Assembly (NCBI GenBank): GCA_023300545.1 | Contig: JALZVT010000010.1 | Location: forward strand, 1-64,000 | DNA length: 64,000 nt | Reading direction: 5' to 3' | Origin: Pseudomonadales bacterium | Lineage (GTDB): Bacteria; Pseudomonadota; Gammaproteobacteria; Pseudomonadales; Azotimanducaceae | In this document: one piece after another, positions 26,899 to 43,511 of the stretch | How the letters are laid out: each line of letters opens with the position of its first letter | Numbering within the stretch: the first letter of the stretch is position 1 | The notes under the pieces: generated by a model | What the model saw: the letters and a program-made list of their open reading frames with translations, nothing else | Databases searched by the model: none | What the model was told of the DNA's origin: nothing | Made by a program: the position numbers and the translations under genes

Positions 26899-27528
26899 TT
26901 GACCACCACTCGAACCACCTCCGCTGGCAGCCGCACGGCCGCCAAACCGCGCAAGCGGCGCACTCCCGAAGAAGCCCGGAGCGTCATTCTTGACGCCGCA
27001 GAGGCGCGACTGCAAAAACTGGGACTGGAAGGACTCAACGTTGTTGGCGTCGCGGAAGACGCGGGGCTTTCCCACGCCAGCGTCATCCACCATTTTGGCA
27101 ACACAGCAGGCATGCGCCAAGCTCTGGGAGAACGCATGACCCAGGCACTGCTCAGTGATCTTGTTGGCGCCCTCAAAAGCGATACGCAGCCGCAGAAAAT
27201 TCTGGCCGCCGTGTTTCACGCCATGGTGGGAGGCGGCCACGCTAAATTATTGGCGTGGCGAGCCCTGAACGACAGTGATTCCGAATTACCTGACGAAGCG
27301 GTACAACGCCTGTTCAAAGAACTCATCCGTCGCACAGGTGAACGCTTTGGACAACAAGACGCGACCTTGATCCGCAACAACCTGCTGTTGATCGCGAGCT
27401 CAGCGATCGGTCTGGGCATTTCCGGCAACGCACTGCCTGCGTTGCTGGGCGTTGATGAAATTGATAACAACGAGTTTGCCGACTGGCTGGCGCACTTGCT
27501 GCTCGACGACGACAAAACATGCACTTAA
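26899..27528 (+). CDS. TetR-family transcriptional regulator
   Basis: The 209-residue protein has a disordered basic start and then a TetR helix-turn-helix (RSVILDAAEARLQKLGLEGL; VAEDAGLSHASVIHHFGNTA), followed by a helical ligand domain. The start is a TTG; no in-frame ATG exists before the DNA-binding domain. It overlaps the next, COQ4-like gene by 10 bases and is divergent from another COQ4-like gene, so both are its likely targets. The ligand is unknown. Confidence 0.88.
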   Translation: MTTTRTTSAGSRTAAKPRKRRTPEEARSVILDAAEARLQKLGLEGLNVVGVAEDAGLSHASVIHHFGNTAGMRQALGERMTQALLSDLVGALKSDTQPQKILAAVFHAMVGGGHAKLLAWRALNDSDSELPDEAVQRLFKELIRRTGERFGQQDATLIRNNLLLIASSAIGLGISGNALPALLGVDEIDNNEFADWLAHLLLDDDKTCT

Positions 27529-28541
27529 ATGAAGAGCAGGTGCTTCGCACCGATATTCAAACCCGGGCTGAGGCCTTCCCTAACATCGGCCCAGCCAATC
27601 ACGAGATCTGCTTCACCAACGTGGTCTCGAATATCAAAGCCGGTGACAAACCGGCCCGGCTAGACCTGAGCGCCGGCCTGTTATACGCGGGTTTTTGCCA
27701 GCCCGCTGCGGTCAATGCCGTCTACGATTCACTGGCAAACAGCTGGCTCGGAGATTCGAAACCCAGGCGCGGTGGTAACCAAAGCCCAAACCAGTCTTTA
27801 ACAACACAGTCTCTAACAACAAAGGACACCGCTTTCACTCGCGAGTTTTGGCGGGCGCTGTGGCAACTGCTGGACAGCTCTGGTCACACTGATGCAGGCA
27901 GTCTCACAGCAAGAATTGCCGCATTGGGCGGCGTACTAGACCCCCGCTTCCAAGCGATTGCAGAAGCACAGAGTCACAACAACCCGGGTGCCGCCAAACC
28001 GCACACCCGCACGCCACCAGCAATGATCAATCTGGCGCAGCTCGCTAGCGCACCTGAACATTCTCTGGCCGCACAATTGCACAGCATGCTCACAGAAAAT
28101 GGCTACGACGCAGAGGTGCTGGATCGGCAAACGCTTGGACTGCACGCATTGCCAGCCGGCCTGCGCTACCTCAACACCCGTATTTTGCAAATGCATGACG
28201 TCTGGCATTTGGCCGCGGGCTACCGCACCACCAGCCTGCACGAAATCGCCATCAGTGCGTTTCAGCTGGCGCAATTCGGTCACAATTATTCAGCCATGTT
28301 TCTCGCCGTCGTATTAACGGTTGCGAGCACATCGCGGCCGGAAGGCTTACCCATATTGCTCCAGATCATCAGCGAAGCCTGGCGGCACGGCCGCAGCTGC
28401 CCTTCGTTTATGGCCATCGACTGGGAACAGGAATGGCACAAGCCCATAGACGAGATTCGAGCGGAACAAGGCATTGTGGCGTTTAACAGTGCATTGCCAG
28501 CCGATCTACTTGAGACACTGGCGCAAGCAAACGAAGGCTAA
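27519..28541 (+). CDS. Second COQ4-like protein with N-terminal extension
   Basis: The C-terminal half of this 340-residue protein matches the COQ4 pattern. The metal motif HDxxH-x11-E is exact (His226, Asp227, His230, Glu242; MHDVWHLAAGYRTTSLHEIA), and the end has GRSCPSFMAIDWEQEWHKPI, parallel to the COQ4 C-terminus. Residues 1-170 are an extension of no recognised family, including a small duplicated NQSLTT/QSLTT insert from a 15-base tandem repeat at 27792-27821. Start codon overlap with the TetR gene suggests coupling. A T-rich stretch follows the stop, without a clear hairpin. Confidence 0.72.
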   Translation: MHLNEEQVLRTDIQTRAEAFPNIGPANHEICFTNVVSNIKAGDKPARLDLSAGLLYAGFCQPAAVNAVYDSLANSWLGDSKPRRGGNQSPNQSLTTQSLTTKDTAFTREFWRALWQLLDSSGHTDAGSLTARIAALGGVLDPRFQAIAEAQSHNNPGAAKPHTRTPPAMINLAQLASAPEHSLAAQLHSMLTENGYDAEVLDRQTLGLHALPAGLRYLNTRILQMHDVWHLAAGYRTTSLHEIAISAFQLAQFGHNYSAMFLAVVLTVASTSRPEGLPILLQIISEAWRHGRSCPSFMAIDWEQEWHKPIDEIRAEQGIVAFNSALPADLLETLAQANEG

Positions 28542-30783: not shown

Positions 30784-31092
30784 ATGATACTTGTGCTCGC
30801 CAATATCGAATCCACAGAAGCAGCTATAGATGAGATGAAAGCCGCTATAGCCGCAATGGAAATCGCCAGCCAAGCTGAAGCGGGCTGCATCAGCTATCGC
30901 TTCACTCAGGAGTTGTCGCACCCCCACAAAATGGTTGTGGTTGAGCAGTGGGAATCGGTTGAAGCCTTGATAGAGCACTTTGGCGCCCCGCACATGGCAG
31001 CTTTTGGTGAGGCCATGGCAAAAAACCCACCCGTGAATGTGGATGCGCAAATGTACGACCTTGGTCCAGGCCAACCGCTACCCCAAAGGTAA
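30784..31092 (+). CDS. Antibiotic-biosynthesis-monooxygenase (ABM) domain protein
   Basis: A 102-residue single ABM-fold protein (dimeric ferredoxin-like barrel), similar to YgiN-type quinol monooxygenases. Typical segments are AEAGCISYRFTQELSHPHKM and VEQWESVEALIEHFGAPHMA. Such cofactor-free enzymes oxidise quinols or polyketides, or act as heme or lipid-aldehyde scavengers. A good AAGGAAA site precedes the ATG. It may be read together with the acyltransferase operon 109 bases downstream, though a hairpin lies between. Confidence 0.85.
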   Translation: MILVLANIESTEAAIDEMKAAIAAMEIASQAEAGCISYRFTQELSHPHKMVVVEQWESVEALIEHFGAPHMAAFGEAMAKNPPVNVDAQMYDLGPGQPLPQR

Positions 31093-31103
31093 ATGTAACG
31101 CGC

Positions 31104-31119
31104 GTGCGACTTCTCGCAC
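31104..31119 (+). terminator. Hairpin after the ABM gene
   Basis: Six perfect GC-rich pairs close a CTTC loop (GTGCGA-CTTC-TCGCAC) 11 bases past the ABM stop. There is no T-run, so it may be a weak terminator or 3'-end stabiliser. Confidence 0.4.
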
Positions 31120-31144
31120 AGCGCTGTGAGAGATTACCTGTTAG

Positions 31145-31201: not shown

Positions 31202-31948
31202 ATGCTTGAACTGGGAACGGCACAAACAGATGCCGACTTTGATGACGCCTACCGGTTTTGGTATGACATCTACGTAGGTGAAATGGGTCGTCACCTGAAC
31301 GACCCCAACACCTCGCACGAACACCGACGGCTCTACGACCCGTTGGCCACCGCAGGCTCCCTGTGCATCGCGCGACGCGAAGGGCAGGTTGTAGGCACCG
31401 TTCTGTCTACACCCATCGCCAATCCTACCGCTGACAAATACCGCACGCTGTACGGTCTGACCGACCTGTCTGCGGAAGAAAACTGGGCAACCGCCATCAC
31501 TACAAAGCTGATGGTCGCCGCGCCATTACGAAAAACCAGACTGCCTCTGCGGCTCGCATTCGCCACCTATAACTGGGGGCTGCATGTCGGAATCAAGCAC
31601 AACTACATCGACTGCAACGATCACCTCGTTCGTCTGTTTAGCCGCCTTGGGTATCAAGAACATCTGCCGTCGCTATTCCTAAAAGAATACGGGGCCGTTA
31701 ACTCACTGCGACTGGATATCACCGACGAAGAACATTTGCGCAAAGTGGCATCGCCATTCTTGCCGGCTCTACGGCGGTTCCTGCGTGAACAGGGTCTGCC
31801 AACGGGCGACTTGGATTCAAAATCTCCAGCACAAGAAAATGCCGCGCAAGTGCCGCCGGCAATCACACAGGCCTTCGACAGATACCGGCCGCACCCGATT
31901 GCTGCTCGGCTAGCAGGTCAGCAACACAAAACCGCAACTGCCTCTTAA
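31202..31948 (+). CDS. FeeM-like N-acyl amino acid synthase (GNAT fold)
   Basis: The 248-residue protein looks like the long-chain N-acyl amino acid synthase (FeeM) branch of the GNAT/autoinducer-synthase fold, which transfers a fatty acyl group from acyl-ACP to an amine. The N-terminus (DDAYRFWYDIYVGEMGRHLN), the central strand (SLCIARREGQVVGTVLSTPI) and a conserved basic patch (TTKLMVAAPLRKTRLPLRLA) support this. A strong GGGAGGAG ribosome site precedes the ATG. It heads an operon with a diiron enzyme (41-base gap) and a desaturase. Donor and acceptor are unknown. Confidence 0.75.
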   Translation: MLELGTAQTDADFDDAYRFWYDIYVGEMGRHLNDPNTSHEHRRLYDPLATAGSLCIARREGQVVGTVLSTPIANPTADKYRTLYGLTDLSAEENWATAITTKLMVAAPLRKTRLPLRLAFATYNWGLHVGIKHNYIDCNDHLVRLFSRLGYQEHLPSLFLKEYGAVNSLRLDITDEEHLRKVASPFLPALRRFLREQGLPTGDLDSKSPAQENAAQVPPAITQAFDRYRPHPIAARLAGQQHKTATAS

Positions 31949-31989
31949 CTTATCTCTCACTTAGCTCTCACCTAAAAAGGTCATTACTA

Positions 31990-32802
31990 ATGAATGCCAA
32001 TGAACAATTAGCTACCGCTTTCGAAGACGTTATTGCCAAGTTTAACAATAGCCCCGGCATGCGCCGCTTTCGCGATGGCAACATCACCAAAGCGCATTAC
32101 GCCGCCCTCCTGAGAGAGGTGTATTTCTATGCTCGAGAAAACCCGCAACTGCAAGCGGGTGCCACCTTGTATTTCCAAGGTCAGCAGCGCGAGATGGTAA
32201 AAGACTTCCTACGCCACGCAACCTCAGAAATTGGCCATGACCAATTGGCACTAAACGACATGGAAGCGTTGGGTTTCGACACCACCGGCATCAAAGAGGG
32301 TCGACCACTGCCCTCCACAATGGCACTGACAGCCTTTCCCTATTACCAGATCACTGGCAAAAACGCGGTGGGCTATCTTGGCTATCTGTACTTTCTCGAG
32401 TTCATGCCCGTGCGCAGCGGCGCGGAATACATCGCCGGACTAACCAAGCTACAGGTGCCTTTCGAAGCAACCACGTTCCTGCAAGATCATTCTGTGATTG
32501 ACGTTGGCCACACCAAGGCTATGACAAAGTACGCTGACACCATCACAACATGTCAACGTGACATCGATGATGTGATTTACGCGATGCGTGTAACGGGTGA
32601 ACTGTATAGCACCTTTGTTGAGCGCACATTTCAAAGCGTAGACGCCGAAGGCATGGCGGGAGAACAGTATGGCGTGGATCAGCCAGAGTCGAGCAGCCTA
32701 GCGCCGCAACGCGCCAGTAAAACACCAACCGCAGCACCACAAGAGTCGGTCACTGCCGATGTAGACGAAGTATTAGCAGAAGAAGCCGTGGTCGCTGCCT
32801 GA
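31990..32802 (+). CDS. Heme-oxygenase-like diiron oxidase (HDO) family enzyme
   Basis: This 270-residue helical protein belongs to the iron-containing redox enzymes related to TenA/CADD/UndA. A full set of candidate diiron ligands is visible: Glu80 and His83 (ATSEIGHDQ), Glu137 (YFLEFMP), and His167, Asp171, His174 (QDHSVIDVGHTK). The Glu-x2-His and His-x3-Asp-x2-His spacing is like UndA, as I recall it, which decarboxylates fatty acids. The last 50 residues are a disordered acidic tail. It overlaps the desaturase start by one base (TGATG), so the two are tightly coupled. The substrate is unknown. Confidence 0.8.
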   Translation: MNANEQLATAFEDVIAKFNNSPGMRRFRDGNITKAHYAALLREVYFYARENPQLQAGATLYFQGQQREMVKDFLRHATSEIGHDQLALNDMEALGFDTTGIKEGRPLPSTMALTAFPYYQITGKNAVGYLGYLYFLEFMPVRSGAEYIAGLTKLQVPFEATTFLQDHSVIDVGHTKAMTKYADTITTCQRDIDDVIYAMRVTGELYSTFVERTFQSVDAEGMAGEQYGVDQPESSSLAPQRASKTPTAAPQESVTADVDEVLAEEAVVAA

Positions 32803-33914
32803 TGAACGCACTCACTCGTACCACCATGCCTGGGAAAATTCGCGACTATCTGCGCCGTGCAGACGTCGCTGAGCAGCTCAAAGATTTGCGTAAGTTATCG
32901 CCGTGGCGATTTTCCGCCGACGTTCTGGGCAACTATCTGGCAATAGCCGCAGTAATCGCCGGCGTGGCCCTGCTTGCTGACGGCGTTACTGGTATGAGTT
33001 GGGTGACCACCGCTGCAATAATGGTTCCAGCCTGGTTAGGCGCCATCGTTGTTATCGCCGCCCGTCAGCACGCGCTGCTGGTACTGATGCACGAAGGCGC
33101 ACACCGCACCGTCAGTACCGATCGCGGTGTTAACGACACGCTATCAGACTTGCTGTGCGGGGCGCCCCTGCTTGTCAGCGTCCGCAGTTATCGAGCCGAT
33201 CATCTAACCCATCATCAACATTTGAACAGCGCCGCAGACCCCGACTGGTGCCGTAAAACAGATGACCGGCAACAACGCGCGCAATGGCACTTCCCAGCTA
33301 CACAACCGCTCGGCCAGGTGCTCGCAAAACTGTATGGCTACAGCGTGACCTATCTACTCAACTCTCTAGCGGCAAATCGTGCCTCACAAAACACGGCCGT
33401 AAGCACCCACACAGCCGTTGCAGCGCCAGTTGGTCCGAGCGATGCCACCTTGAGCAGGCTGCGTTACGCACTGTACGGCGGCGTTGCACTCGCCCTCACG
33501 TTCACAGATTCCTGGCTGGGCTTTGTGGCGTTGTGGTTAGCGCCAATGTTGTTGGTGTTACCGCTGATCATGCGAGTGCGCAGCATCGCAGAGCACTTTG
33601 CACTGCGGCACGATCATGCGTTAACCCAATCACGCACAGTGCGGGCGGGTCTGTTAGAGCGAGCGCTGCTCGCCCCCCACCACATCGGACTACACATCGA
33701 CCACCACATGCTAGCCTCGGTGCCGTACTTCAATCTACCCGCACTGCACAGGTTGCTCCTAGACTGTCCTTACTACGCAGAAAACGCGCACTTAAACGAC
33801 GGGTATTTTCTGCGCAGACGCCGCCACTACGCAGGCATTCACGTCTCACCCGCGCTACCGCTACTGGCCGACGACATGTACACCCAGCAATCAGAACGCC
33901 TCGCGATGGGCTAG
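32802..33914 (+). CDS. Membrane fatty acid desaturase family protein
   Basis: An integral membrane diiron enzyme of 370 residues with the three histidine boxes of acyl desaturases/hydroxylases: HEGAH (97-101), HLTHH (134-138) and HIDHH (298-302), plus AEHF near 263. Hydrophobic hairpins lie at about 42-62, 68-88, 225-235 and 240-258. It oxidises an acyl chain or acyl conjugate, probably one made or processed by the two preceding genes. It ends the operon; a strong hairpin follows 15 bases after its stop. Confidence 0.87.
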   Translation: MNALTRTTMPGKIRDYLRRADVAEQLKDLRKLSPWRFSADVLGNYLAIAAVIAGVALLADGVTGMSWVTTAAIMVPAWLGAIVVIAARQHALLVLMHEGAHRTVSTDRGVNDTLSDLLCGAPLLVSVRSYRADHLTHHQHLNSAADPDWCRKTDDRQQRAQWHFPATQPLGQVLAKLYGYSVTYLLNSLAANRASQNTAVSTHTAVAAPVGPSDATLSRLRYALYGGVALALTFTDSWLGFVALWLAPMLLVLPLIMRVRSIAEHFALRHDHALTQSRTVRAGLLERALLAPHHIGLHIDHHMLASVPYFNLPALHRLLLDCPYYAENAHLNDGYFLRRRRHYAGIHVSPALPLLADDMYTQQSERLAMG

Positions 33915-33929
33915 TAAATGCTCGGAGTC

Positions 33930-33951
33930 GGCAGCGCACAACAGCGCTGCC
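33930..33951 (+). terminator. Terminator-like hairpin closing the acyltransferase/diiron/desaturase operon
   Basis: Eight perfect GC-rich pairs (GGCAGCGC/GCGCTGCC) around an ACAACA loop, followed by ATCTT. The T-tract is weak, but stem strength and placement 15 bases after the stop fit termination. Confidence 0.6.
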
Positions 33952-34006: not shown

Positions 34007-35383
34007 CTGTCTGATCAGCAGCCCCCGCCAAAATCTTCAAGCCCGTTCGCCTACAACGACCGGCTATGGCACCGACGTATCTGGAAACTCTCCTGGCCCA
34101 TTATTTTGGCCAACCTCACAGTGCCATTGGTGGGCACCGTAGACACGGCCGTGATGGGTCACATGCCCAGCGCCAATTACATCGCGGCTGTCGCGTTAGG
34201 CGCAATGTTGTACTCATCGGTGTACTGGCTGTTTGGCTTTCTACGAATGGGGACCACTGCACTGGTGGCCCAGGCACACGGCGCCGGCAACGACGATGAG
34301 CTGCGCGCCTCTCTGTGGCGCGGCGCACTCATGGCGGTGTGCATCGCATTGATTTTACTCGCTCTGAGCCCCGCCCTGATGGCAGGCGCCGCACTGCTCA
34401 TCAGCGCCGACCCAGCAGTCACCCCTTTGACACTTGAATATCTACAGATTCGCCTGTTTGGCGCGCCCGCCTACTTCGTCTACCTGGTTGTGCTCGGGGG
34501 GCTGTTTGGCACCCAACGAATGGGCACCACGATGTTGCTTACCCTGCTGTTCAACCTGTTGAACGTTGTGCTAGATCTGTTGTTTGTCGTCGTTTTCGAC
34601 TGGGGAGTGGCAGGAGTTGCCTGGGGTACTGTGTGCAGCGAATGGGTCGCGGCCGCCGTTGGCGTTCGCCTCATTTGGACGCCGCTGCAACTCGCGAATC
34701 TGCCCTCAAGCCGCTCGTTCTGGGCTCGTGGCAGTTGGGGCTCGCTGCTGGGTATGAGTCGCGATTTGCTGATCCGCACGTTTTTTGTCCAACTACCGTT
34801 CTTGCTCAATACACTAATGGCGGCCCGCCTGGGCAGCGTGGTGTTGGCCGGCAACGCCATTTTGATGCAATTCTTCTTTATCATTACCTACGCTCTCGAT
34901 GGCTTCGCCCACACGGCGGAAGCGCTTACCGGCTTTGCCGTCGGTTCGCGTCAGCGCGAATCCCTGCATAAAACCGCAATGTACTGCGGCATGTGGGCCA
35001 CAGGCCTCGGCATTATCAGCGCACTTATTCTCGCCCTGCTTGGCAGCTCACTCATAGGCGTTATGACCGACATCACCGGAGTACGCGCAAGCGCTCGAGA
35101 ATTCCTGCCTTGGGTGATCGGCTTGCCGCTGGCGGGTGTTGGTGCGTTCCTTTATGACGGGATCTATATCGGCGCCGGCGCGGCTCGCGAATTGCGCAAC
35201 GCAATGCTGCTCGCGGCCTTTGTCTATCTAGCGACCCTGGGCCTTGCCGCAAACTTCGGCACACTAAACAACCACACCCTGTGGCTGGGCATGCTGCTAT
35301 TTATGCTAGTCCGCAGCGGATTACTGGCTCTTGGCTACCCCCGCCTGTTACGACGTGTATTCAGTGACGATATGGCCCACTAA
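34007..35383 (+). CDS. MATE family efflux transporter (DinF-like), start codon uncertain
   Basis: A multidrug and toxin extrusion protein of about 458 residues with 12 hydrophobic helices. The family start (KLSWPIILANLTVPLVGTVD) and internal repeat (SWGSLLGMSRDLLIRTFFVQ) are clear. The annotated-looking TTG at 34106 would delete the LSWPII part of helix 1. The frame opens at 33989 with no ATG, GTG or TTG before that point, and CTG at 34007 gives a natural MSDQQ-type start. A TATACT -10-like box lies at 33972-33977. It may export the product of the preceding operon (inference). Confidence 0.83.
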   Translation: MSDQQPPPKSSSPFAYNDRLWHRRIWKLSWPIILANLTVPLVGTVDTAVMGHMPSANYIAAVALGAMLYSSVYWLFGFLRMGTTALVAQAHGAGNDDELRASLWRGALMAVCIALILLALSPALMAGAALLISADPAVTPLTLEYLQIRLFGAPAYFVYLVVLGGLFGTQRMGTTMLLTLLFNLLNVVLDLLFVVVFDWGVAGVAWGTVCSEWVAAAVGVRLIWTPLQLANLPSSRSFWARGSWGSLLGMSRDLLIRTFFVQLPFLLNTLMAARLGSVVLAGNAILMQFFFIITYALDGFAHTAEALTGFAVGSRQRESLHKTAMYCGMWATGLGIISALILALLGSSLIGVMTDITGVRASAREFLPWVIGLPLAGVGAFLYDGIYIGAGAARELRNAMLLAAFVYLATLGLAANFGTLNNHTLWLGMLLFMLVRSGLLALGYPRLLRRVFSDDMAH

Positions 35384-41502: not shown

Positions 41503-43008
41503 TCAGGCGGCGCCATCTCCTTTGGGCTTGTCACCGCCGCTATCACCAGAACTCTGCCTGCCAAAGCCTTGAGCACGCCGCAACCGCTCATCAAGTTTCA
41601 GTACGTTGTCGAACTGGGACTCACGATCCGTAGTTGCGGCTGGCGCCTCAATCTGCGGCAGAGTGACGAGCACAATGGTTTGCCCCATCTGTGTCCGCGC
41701 TTCAATAGTGCCTTCGTGATGCTCGACAATTTTTCTGGATACATACAGCCCCATACCAAGATGGGTTTTGGGGCGCGTTGTATCAAAAACCTCAAACACA
41801 TCACGACCTTCGGGCAAAGGCTCACCGCGATTGTGTACTGTGAAGTAAACCGATTGCGCTATGCTCTTCACTTCGATGCGCACAAATGCGTCTTCGGAGG
41901 AGTAGTCGAGTGCATTGTTCAGCAAGTGATCAAAGACCTGCAGCAGACGCGCCTCACTGCCATTAATCCAAAGATCAGGATAAACTTCTAGCTCTAAAGG
42001 ATTTGCTTCGTCAAGATCACGAGCGCGCTCCAGCACTCGCTCAGAAACCATGCGGCTAAAGTTTACTGGATGCATTTGATCCAACTGCAACGCCGATTCA
42101 AGCGTGCTGGCCTCACCCACCGAATCACACAACTCCCCCAGCTTATCGACAGAACGTAACGCTCGCCGCAGAAACGGGCGCTGCTCACTGGAAGCCTCTT
42201 GCTGCAAATATTCAAGATTCGACTGCACAATAAACACGTGATTGCGTAGTTCATGCTCGAGATACCGAGACAGATTGCGCAGCCAGTTGATTTGGTTCGC
42301 TTGCTGGCGATCCGTAACGCTTCGCAGCCGATTGACTTCAATATCGGCAGAAAACAATTGACGCTGTCCCTGTTCGCGAAGGTAAGACAACAGCACACAG
42401 ATAACTGAAACACCCTGAACAGCCACTTTATAATTAGCAACCGCATCGGACGGTTCAGCATAGGTGGTCAACGCATAAGACATCAGTGCTGTTAACCCAA
42501 TTATCGGCAACACCAGGTAGCGGAACGGCTGAAACATCACCACCGCGATAAACAACATATGCTGTAAATACGCCATGCTCGTATTGGTTGCAGACTCCGC
42601 CCCCAACAATGGCAGAATTGCGATCTGGCTGAGCACAACCGTGACGCTCGCAACCGCAAGAAAAGGGTAATACTCCTCGCGCCAAATGAATGATGTGATC
42701 AGGCAAATCAGAATGACCGGCATCACAAACAACAACCGGACTTGATTTACCAGCTCTGGCATATGCAGAACGAAGGGCTCAAAGACGGCAAAGATCAGCA
42801 GAACCACGATGCCACAAACCAAACCAATACGAGTGCCCTTGATGTTCTGATCAAAGTAGCTGTGTCTATATCGACGCTCGAGATCTGCATCGCGAAACCG
42901 CAAATCCCACAATCGCAAGCTACTGTCTCTGAACTCAATGGCTTCTGTTGACGCTCTTACATCAGCTATTGCGTCCGAGGTTCGATCATTATCAAAAGAA
43001 TCAGCCAA
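41503..43008 (-). CDS. Membrane sensor histidine kinase
   Basis: A 501-residue kinase with about six membrane helices (60-82, 90-108, 113-135, 148-160, 164-182, 195-210) and a coiled connector. The H-box is His252 in NLSRYLEHELRNHVFIVQSN, the N-box VFDHLLNNALDYSS, a G1-like VHNRGEPLP and the G2 motif LGMGLYVSRKIV, so it looks catalytically competent. No response regulator is adjacent. The TTG start overlaps the stop of the upstream membrane-protein gene by eight bases, which suggests the two act together. It converges with the thiolase 10 bases away. Confidence 0.88.
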   Translation of the reverse strand: MADSFDNDRTSDAIADVRASTEAIEFRDSSLRLWDLRFRDADLERRYRHSYFDQNIKGTRIGLVCGIVVLLIFAVFEPFVLHMPELVNQVRLLFVMPVILICLITSFIWREEYYPFLAVASVTVVLSQIAILPLLGAESATNTSMAYLQHMLFIAVVMFQPFRYLVLPIIGLTALMSYALTTYAEPSDAVANYKVAVQGVSVICVLLSYLREQGQRQLFSADIEVNRLRSVTDRQQANQINWLRNLSRYLEHELRNHVFIVQSNLEYLQQEASSEQRPFLRRALRSVDKLGELCDSVGEASTLESALQLDQMHPVNFSRMVSERVLERARDLDEANPLELEVYPDLWINGSEARLLQVFDHLLNNALDYSSEDAFVRIEVKSIAQSVYFTVHNRGEPLPEGRDVFEVFDTTRPKTHLGMGLYVSRKIVEHHEGTIEARTQMGQTIVLVTLPQIEAPAATTDRESQFDNVLKLDERLRRAQGFGRQSSGDSGGDKPKGDGAA

Positions 43009-43456
43009 GGTCTTTTGCCTTTGCCGGGTGCAACCCGATATAGGCCGCGCCAGCTAAAGCACCCGCAAACGCCTGCCAACCAAGGCCCGCGATCTCACGC
43101 GTGGCCGCAACGGGATTTATTTCTGCGACAGAATTGAGCACCAGGTGCATAACCAACAGACCCACGGCGCCCGCCAGCACAAAGCCAATCGTACGCAAGC
43201 TGAAAAGGCCGGCGCGCCGGACGATAAACCCAGCAACGGCAAACGCCAACAGCAGAGCCACCGCGATGGCAATGGGATAAATGGCCCCGGTTGCCATGCC
43301 AATGACATCACCCACCGTCCAGCGCAAGCGTTCGCTCAGATCGACGTCACCAGCCATCGCCTCGAACCGACCAATCACATGCTGCGCCGCAGCCACTGAA
43401 CCCACAACATGAGCAACAACCACCGCTCCGATATAACCCATCAATGTGCGAACCAA
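43001..43456 (-). CDS. Small integral membrane protein, partner of the histidine kinase
   Basis: No family is recognised. The product has four hydrophobic segments (GYIGAVVVAHVVGSVAAAQ; GAIYPIAIAVALLLAFAVAG; TIGFVLAGAVGLLVMHLVLN; WQAFAGALAGAAYIGLHP). The frame extends to an ATG at 43507, but that ATG is part of a TATAATG -10 box. A TTG at 43456 preceded by GGGAGAGAAG is a better start (151 residues). Overlap with the kinase gene suggests a membrane co-sensor (inference). Confidence 0.65.
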   Translation of the reverse strand: MVRTLMGYIGAVVVAHVVGSVAAAQHVIGRFEAMAGDVDLSERLRWTVGDVIGMATGAIYPIAIAVALLLAFAVAGFIVRRAGLFSLRTIGFVLAGAVGLLVMHLVLNSVAEINPVAATREIAGLGWQAFAGALAGAAYIGLHPAKAKDLG

Positions 43457-43478
43457 AGCTTCTCTCCCGAATCGTGTT

Positions 43479-43511
43479 CCCGCAATATAGTGCGGGTAAT
43501 TTTCCATTATA
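43479..43511 (-). promoter_or_regulatory. -10 box and operator-like inverted repeat of the membrane protein/kinase unit
   Basis: A consensus TATAAT reads on the minus strand at 43506-43511 (the -35 is weak). Immediately downstream, CCCGCA-N6-TGCGGG (43479-43496) forms a symmetric repeat over the predicted transcript start. It also lies 29-46 bases before the divergent sugar-dehydrogenase gene, so one regulator could control both. Confidence 0.4.

Follow-up and report, generated by a model that had tools for sequence, protein, structure and literature searches.

Among described bacterial signalling systems, CqsA/CqsS and LqsA/LqsS combine a signal synthase with a membrane-bound sensor kinase, and the synthases CqsA and LqsA are pyridoxal phosphate enzymes that make alpha-hydroxyketones. 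Other known enzymes that bear on the locus described here are FeeM (PDB 2g0b, Pfam PF21926), the LuxI-type acyl-homoserine lactone (AHL) synthases, and the heme-oxygenase-like diiron oxidases/oxygenases (HDOs). The HDO-superfamily member MboA forms an alkyne on a ligase-made tripeptide with the redox partner MboB, and the same paper adds that HDOs seem specialised in biosynthetic pathways acting on amino acids (PMC13185094). Most HDO-family proteins have no known function, according to PMC13232832. PvfB, a nonheme diiron N-oxygenase, is placed by PMC10194917 in a quorum-sensing autoinducer pathway, Pvf, which uses a nonribosomal peptide synthetase (NRPS) and whose receptor that paper defers to later work. 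Here, we describe a three-gene operon in a 64,000-nucleotide stretch of contig JALZVT010000010.1 (assembly GCA_023300545.1, a Pseudomonadales bacterium of the Azotimanducaceae), referred to below as the window. An earlier note, made from the sequence alone, had proposed that the operon makes an N-acyl product that is oxidised and desaturated into a lipid mediator or signal. We widen that finding to include a histidine kinase encoded 7.6 kb downstream and recast the whole as a candidate system for signal synthesis and sensing, with the following components:

31202–31948, plus strand: gene 1, N-acyltransferase with a predicted FeeM/LuxI fold (GNAT superfamily), putative signal synthase (open reading frame [ORF] and model fold)
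31990–32802, plus strand: gene 2, HDO (PF14518 and alignment with PDB 3dde)
32802–33914, plus strand: gene 3, membrane enzyme of the FA_desaturase superfamily, a desaturase or hydroxylase with three histidine boxes (PF00487)
41503–43008, minus strand: histidine kinase with a putative six-helix membrane sensor, candidate cognate receptor, 7.6 kb downstream of the operon

The locus resembles each of these systems in part. As in CqsA/CqsS-type systems, the putative synthase genes are beside, or co-inherited with, a sensor histidine kinase, but the enzymes are unrelated to CqsA and LqsA. Gene 1 shares its predicted fold with FeeM and with the LuxI-type synthases; unlike FeeM, it scores below the cut-off of the FeeM family and has an HDO and a sensor kinase as partners, and unlike the LuxI-type synthases, it has no LuxI-family Pfam match at E 0.1 and is partnered by a histidine kinase. 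A Pfam scan of eight window proteins around the operon found no LuxR-type match and no carrier-protein, ligase, or NRPS domain, and thus no NRPS gene of the Pvf/mgo/ham type among them. The likeness to Pvf lies in a diiron enzyme within a signal pathway, and the difference in an acyltransferase and a sensor kinase where Pvf has an NRPS. Gene 2 has the PF14518 domain and the six ligands of the MboA/HDO superfamily, whereas its partner is a FeeM-like acyltransferase and not, as for MboA, the redox partner MboB. We found no description of this gene combination in the open-access literature, which is weak evidence given that only open papers were covered. The locus offers specific candidates for the synthase and the receptor of a signalling pathway for which we found no description, in bacteria of which several named records are metagenome-assembled.

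The three genes form a conserved unit, though a rare one. A profile of three acyltransferases matched only the window's own genome among 390 genomes of the order and matched 5 of the 206 genomes of the family. Four of these five (the window's genome G000, G009, G029, and G458) carry the acyltransferase, HDO, and desaturase genes in the same order, so that the co-occurrence on which the earlier note had made its reading depend was indeed found. In G009, the acyltransferase and HDO are fused in one ORF of 484 amino acids, and the desaturase gene starts one base later. The fifth genome, G535, encodes a distant acyltransferase without the HDO and desaturase partners and was rejected as a carrier, having only a distant GNAT with an extension (locus L029). 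Two short peptide patterns searched over the genome collection returned seven loci, four matching G009, G029, and G458 and three distant. Several GNATs were not counted as cassettes: those at L023 and L029 run on, by eye, into a cyclic-nucleotide-binding-like part, and L024/L025 hold a stand-alone GNAT in a different cluster. G029 also contains a second copy of the acyltransferase start (L021:2671–4322), which enters unrelated sequence before the contig end and is possibly an assembly chimera.

A kinase with a membrane sensor is encoded in all four cassette carriers. In G009, G458, and G029, the desaturase gene is followed by three genes on the opposite strand: one for a small sigma factor (above its Pfam cut-off in G009 and just below it in G458), one for a response regulator, and one for a histidine kinase whose N-terminal region is hydrophobic; in G029, this group is on a different contig from the cassette start. 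Searched against the window's genome, the G009 kinase gave one match that included the sensor (41692–42897), within the ORF at 41503–43008, a gene that the earlier note had missed. The product of this ORF has HATPase_c above and HisKA below the Pfam cut-off. The sensor contains five to six hydrophobic stretches, and six helices in a low-confidence model; a six-span design has been described both for the quorum-sensing receptor CqsS and for anchors of adenylate cyclases. When 58 relatives were searched with the G009 kinase at E 1e-10 (a set that did not include G458, which nevertheless has the kinase), 46 matched, and the match began at the N-terminal start only in G009, G029, and G000; the other 43 matches started at residue 164 at the least. 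Sensor-spanning matches were therefore present in three of three carriers and in none of 55 other relatives (Fisher p 3e-5, ignoring relatedness).

The association of HDO, acyltransferase, and kinase extends to another class. A search of 398 genomes of the phylum with an HDO profile added one close relative, G920, which belongs to the same phylum but another class and has a kinase-like gene, an HDO, and an acyltransferase adjacent to one another. A close HDO was present in 17 of 249 genomes of G920's order, and at all 17 loci the three genes lie side by side, with the acyltransferase sharing the strand of the HDO at 11 loci and facing it from the other strand at 6. A profile of the sensors from this class matched 32 of the 249 genomes; the strongest 17 (E 2.1e-68 or better) were the same 17 HDO carriers, and the 15 further genomes had only a distant sensor paralogue (E 1.1e-11 to 2.7e-36). 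A desaturase-type gene was near one of the 17 modules (G940) in the 9 to 16 kb read, and the core pair in this class is the acyltransferase and the HDO. The paralogous sensors occupy 18 places, of which 12 were read: a conserved protein of about 480 amino acids, similar to methyltransferases and weakly to PilZ, adjoins the sensor in 11 of them (L111–L115 and L117–L122), and a desaturase-type gene lies within about 1.2 kb in six. Thus, the HDO with the acyltransferase and, separately, a desaturase-type enzyme each occur with this sensor family, and the window combines all three. Two profiles recognised the window sensor: that of the other class, with hhalign 95.5 at E 1.4e-8 and HMMER 9.1e-16, and one made from the remaining three gammaproteobacterial carriers, with hhalign 93.9 at E 1.6e-7 and HMMER 4.5e-9. 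None of 23 controls, comprising 11 membrane stretches unrelated to the sensor and 12 sensors that had been reversed or shuffled, exceeded 4.3.

Within the 17 other-class modules, the sensor and the HDO vary together. Their distance matrices were correlated at r 0.784, a value reached in none of 20,000 permutations, compared with 0.480 between the sensor and the kinase part of the same protein and 0.450 between the sensor and the acyltransferase. The partial correlation of sensor and HDO given the kinase part was 0.738, whereas that of the kinase part and HDO given the sensor was 0.029, and that of sensor and acyltransferase given the HDO was 0.256; removing L087 and L090 left the sensor–HDO correlation at 0.703. 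For column tests, two sensor clades of 7 and 9 loci were compared; L090, which forms a third cluster of sensors, was left out. The tests were not blind, the HDO N-termini having been seen before the clades were set by sensor distance. The clades separate 9 of 251 HDO columns, none of 251 acyltransferase columns, and none of 276 kinase-part columns. None of 3000 random 7/9 splits separated nine HDO columns (maximum, two); at least one acyltransferase column was separated by 250 of 3000 and one kinase-part column by 638 of 3000. When the loci are split by kinase-part cluster (three loci), the columns separated number 13 in the acyltransferase, 6 in the sensor, and 1 in the HDO. Acyltransferase type was rejected as a sensor-linked trait, its split separating no HDO and no sensor columns. 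The clade-separated HDO positions include 47–49 (L074 numbering; HHT versus YYV or YCV) and two within the segment bearing ligands H168 and H175. Among the gammaproteobacterial carriers, the window HDO reads YFYA, against FHHA or FHHS in the others. The covariation is well explained by a ligand specificity common to both proteins and suggests that the sensor meets the HDO product. The receptor gene that accompanies the HDO would give a direct readout for that product, and the HDO positions that change with the sensor are testable specificity residues.

Gene 1 scored 20.8 bits against FeeM PF21926, below the gathering cut-off of 27, and three other-class homologues (L122, L074, and L077) pass that cut-off with 41.3, 37.6, and 49.0 bits, respectively. 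Its AlphaFold model (mean pLDDT 83.5) matched AHL synthases at ranks 1–8 of a Foldseek search against solved structures (MesI, TofI, LasI, RpaI, and BjaI; E 3.0e-9 to 4.4e-8); FeeM first appears at rank 21. The VIA-align comparison placed FeeM first (2g0b_C, Z 18.1, root-mean-square deviation 2.3, 167 residues aligned), and LuxI-type synthases, taking the best chain of each, reached Z 14.2 to 16.4 over 171 to 178 residues (TofI, Z 16.4 over 173 residues; TofI, RpaI, and BjaI, about 16 over 173 to 178). From the top ranks of both searches, the predicted fold of gene 1 is that of FeeM and the AHL synthases. The earlier description of a FeeM-like N-acyltransferase agrees with the model in its fold.

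Gene 2 scored 66.5 bits against PF14518 (cut-off, 28.9) and matched PDB 3dde as a single sequence at E 7.9e-22. Its Glu80, His83, Glu137, His167, Asp171, and His174, which the earlier note had correctly listed as a complete set of diiron ligands, align with identical residues of 3dde and are invariant in the four gammaproteobacterial HDOs, the window's included, and in seven HDOs of both classes. Judged by this alignment, the HDO carries all six predicted metal ligands (E, H, E, H, D, and H). A likeness to UndA that had also been suggested found no support in sequence searches: UndA was not among the sequence matches of gene 2 to solved structures up to E 10, and the nearest solved structures to a four-sequence HDO profile were 3dde (1.6e-26), the acetylenase MboA (2.1e-7), and, very weakly, BesC (0.33). 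Because MboA and the HDOs seem to favour amino-acid substrates, gene 2 would, by analogy with these relatives, more likely oxidise an amino-acid part than decarboxylate a plain fatty acid. A second, distant HDO-like match with 20% identity occurs elsewhere in the window's genome (L015, G000:C165:8562–9197). Gene 3 scored 113.5 bits against PF00487 (cut-off, 29.7), and the three histidine boxes already recognised in the earlier note (H97xxxH101, H134xxHH138, and H298xxHH302) are invariant in the window and two relatives. The nearest curated NCBIfam model within FA_desaturase is GntB (NF041365), the arginine hydroxylase of guanitoxin biosynthesis, but gene 3 reaches 100 bits against a cut-off of 380, far below it.

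On this evidence, we give a probability of roughly one half to a quorum-sensing-like system whose synthesis half is the operon: an oxidised N-acyl signal, modified by the gene 3 enzyme, would be read by the kinase. It is the best present reading because the sensor kinase goes with the cassette genes. The acyltransferase would couple an amino acid or amine to an acyl chain. Using O2 at its dimetal centre, the HDO would oxidise the amino-acid part of the product, or the amino acid before acylation, and this would be the step most tied to the sensor. The gene 3 enzyme may next desaturate or hydroxylate the chain, an addition seen in the gammaproteobacterial carriers, and the membrane histidine kinase (41503–43008) would read the product. 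We infer the substrates, the order of the steps, the product, its export, its sensing, and the identity of the window kinase as the cognate one. The earlier proposal of an oxidised and desaturated N-acyl signal is in this form strengthened by the conserved unit, the fold, the ligands, and the sensor kinase, but the sequence searches gave no support to a likeness to UndA. More tentatively, and with doubt predominating, these genes could represent a quorum-sensing class of their own across two proteobacterial classes, in which the HDO and not the acyltransferase sets the dialect, so that HDO and sensor shift together, with acyltransferases being exchanged and some lineages gaining a desaturase.

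Several observations weigh against the signalling reading. The sensor and HDO genes are divergent neighbours, and it is therefore conceivable that their covariation could have arisen by exchange of the two as one block. In the structural comparison of gene 1, a generic acetyltransferase ties with FeeM by Z (17.7), over fewer residues (142). The 17 modules are confined to one family and three genera, the sensor profile that ranked them highest was made from 12 of the 17 loci, and both of the two other-class kinases scanned fall below the Pfam kinase cut-offs. The window kinase is only 26% identical to that of G009, the sensor model is poor (pLDDT 61.7), and the window kinase has no regulator beside it, the nearest homologue being on contig C103; a dedicated neighbouring regulator was accordingly discarded from the proposed system. 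Without the window's sensor, the gammaproteobacterial and other-class sensor profiles matched weakly (55.2, E 1.2e-4), the other-class profile missed the sensors of L016 and L019 at 1e-8, and tblastn with the gammaproteobacterial kinases found nothing in L069. In a search of 32 relatives (a set without G029) at E 1e-3, the other-class profile matched G000, G008, and G042 (twice), missed the carrier G009, and thus matched 2 of 30 non-carriers. The sensor domain is on a diguanylate cyclase in G008 and on both a diguanylate cyclase and a histidine kinase beside a regulator-like gene in G042, so an exclusive link between sensor and cassette was not upheld. No HDO, FeeM-like, or desaturase gene was near these sensors in the 7 to 12.5 kb read. 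The two diguanylate cyclases are at L169:5957–7117 and L171:6028–7218 and the histidine kinase is at L170:5211–6602. Given these other outputs, the sensor domain, for which Pfam may have no model, may serve more widely for small-molecule input, and the cassette goes with a kinase that bears it.

Among the alternatives to a cell-to-cell signal, the one that survives best is that the operon makes a secreted N-acyl amino acid antibiotic, metallophore, or surfactant and that the kinase controls its production or self-protection, which we regard as unlikely. The apparent specialisation of HDOs in amino-acid pathways (PMC13185094) would suit such a product, as would the exporter genes that some genomes have close to the cassette (the window a MATE gene, L019 an MFS gene). 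However, the exporters differ between genomes and are not conserved, the scanned window proteins are devoid of the carrier-protein, ligase, and NRPS domains named above, and the way in which sensor and HDO vary together suggests a sensor that meets the HDO product itself. It is improbable, too, that the enzymes produce or alter an aminolipid of the membrane or a fatty acid containing an amine while the kinase senses the state of the membrane. The desaturase-type enzyme of gene 3 is integral to the membrane, lipid packing could be read by a sensor embedded there, half of the paralogous sensor loci read have a desaturase-type gene nearby, and the sensor domain also occurs on unrelated outputs, all of which would fit a membrane lipid; yet the distribution is rare and patchy, unlike that of a housekeeping lipid, 16 of the 17 other-class modules are without a desaturase-type gene in the sequence read, and the predicted fold of gene 1 is nearest to FeeM and the AHL synthases. 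That the genes have separate roles and stand together by chance or through shared transcription only is very improbable: although each family is common alone and distant HDOs are mostly in a different cluster, the order is kept, two of the genes are fused in one genome, and the acyltransferase and HDO recur together in another class, where the strand has changed and the adjacency has been kept.

The wider HDO family gives a background to the signalling reading. In the window's class, 30 of 355 genomes have an HDO at E 1e-20, and only the window's own is close. Apart from it, the class sample contains 30 HDO places, and the 19 loci read have an AMP-ligase nearby in 15, an SDR in 16, and a FeeM-like acyltransferase in 1 (L131), with no membrane sensor within about 1.5 kb of any of the 19. 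The distant HDOs were therefore ruled out as members of the system, being mostly in AMP-ligase/SDR clusters without a sensor. The exceptional L131/L147 (L147:7457–9321, from another gammaproteobacterial family) has an HDO followed, as a tight pair, by a FeeM-like acyltransferase with a cyclic-nucleotide-binding-like extension, and no sensor on its 11.5-kb contig, so the pairing of HDO and acyltransferase either predates the link to the sensor or arose repeatedly. In 72,556 plasmid records, 44 had an HDO match, all below 60% identity (at most 30.5% among the 30 matches listed); no cassette was present among the matches listed, and several were beside AMP-ligase or SDR genes. As a separate observation, the AMP-ligase, HDO, and SDR genes form a common gammaproteobacterial cluster (L072:4416–8007, L073:4195–7800, and L129–L145), in which the HDO is paired with another family; a thermostable-hemolysin-family gene belongs to it in L072 (by Pfam) and in L073 (by eye).

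The layout of the operon is as the earlier note had described it, including a palindrome in the leader and a hairpin beyond the final stop codon: the ORFs are compact, with a 41-base gap between genes 1 and 2 (31949–31989) and a one-base overlap between genes 2 and 3 (TGATG at 32800–32804). The remaining features of the region are:

30784–31092: ABM protein (ORF and Pfam)
31112–31133, no strand assigned: leader palindrome of two 11-base arms, 91% complementary, a possible operator
33930–33951, plus strand: hairpin 3' of the last stop codon, with 8-base arms, 100% complementary, and no T-run
34106–35383: MATE exporter (ORF and Pfam)
43001–43507, minus strand: small membrane protein, with an 8-base overlap between its gene and that of the sensor kinase (ORF map)

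Both the leader (fold z = −3.24) and the region downstream of the operon (z = −5.12) were more stable than expected, with none of 200 shuffles equally stable in either case; the terminator scan did not list the hairpin, which has no T-run, as a terminator. The ABM protein and the MATE exporter, once suggested as accessories, were ruled out as parts of the system, neither adjoining the cassette in G009, G029, or G458. Upstream of the cassette, G458 has instead an MFS transporter and a nitroreductase, and similar ORFs are found in G029. Farther upstream in the window, at 26899–28541, a TetR-type regulator gene overlaps a Coq4-family gene.

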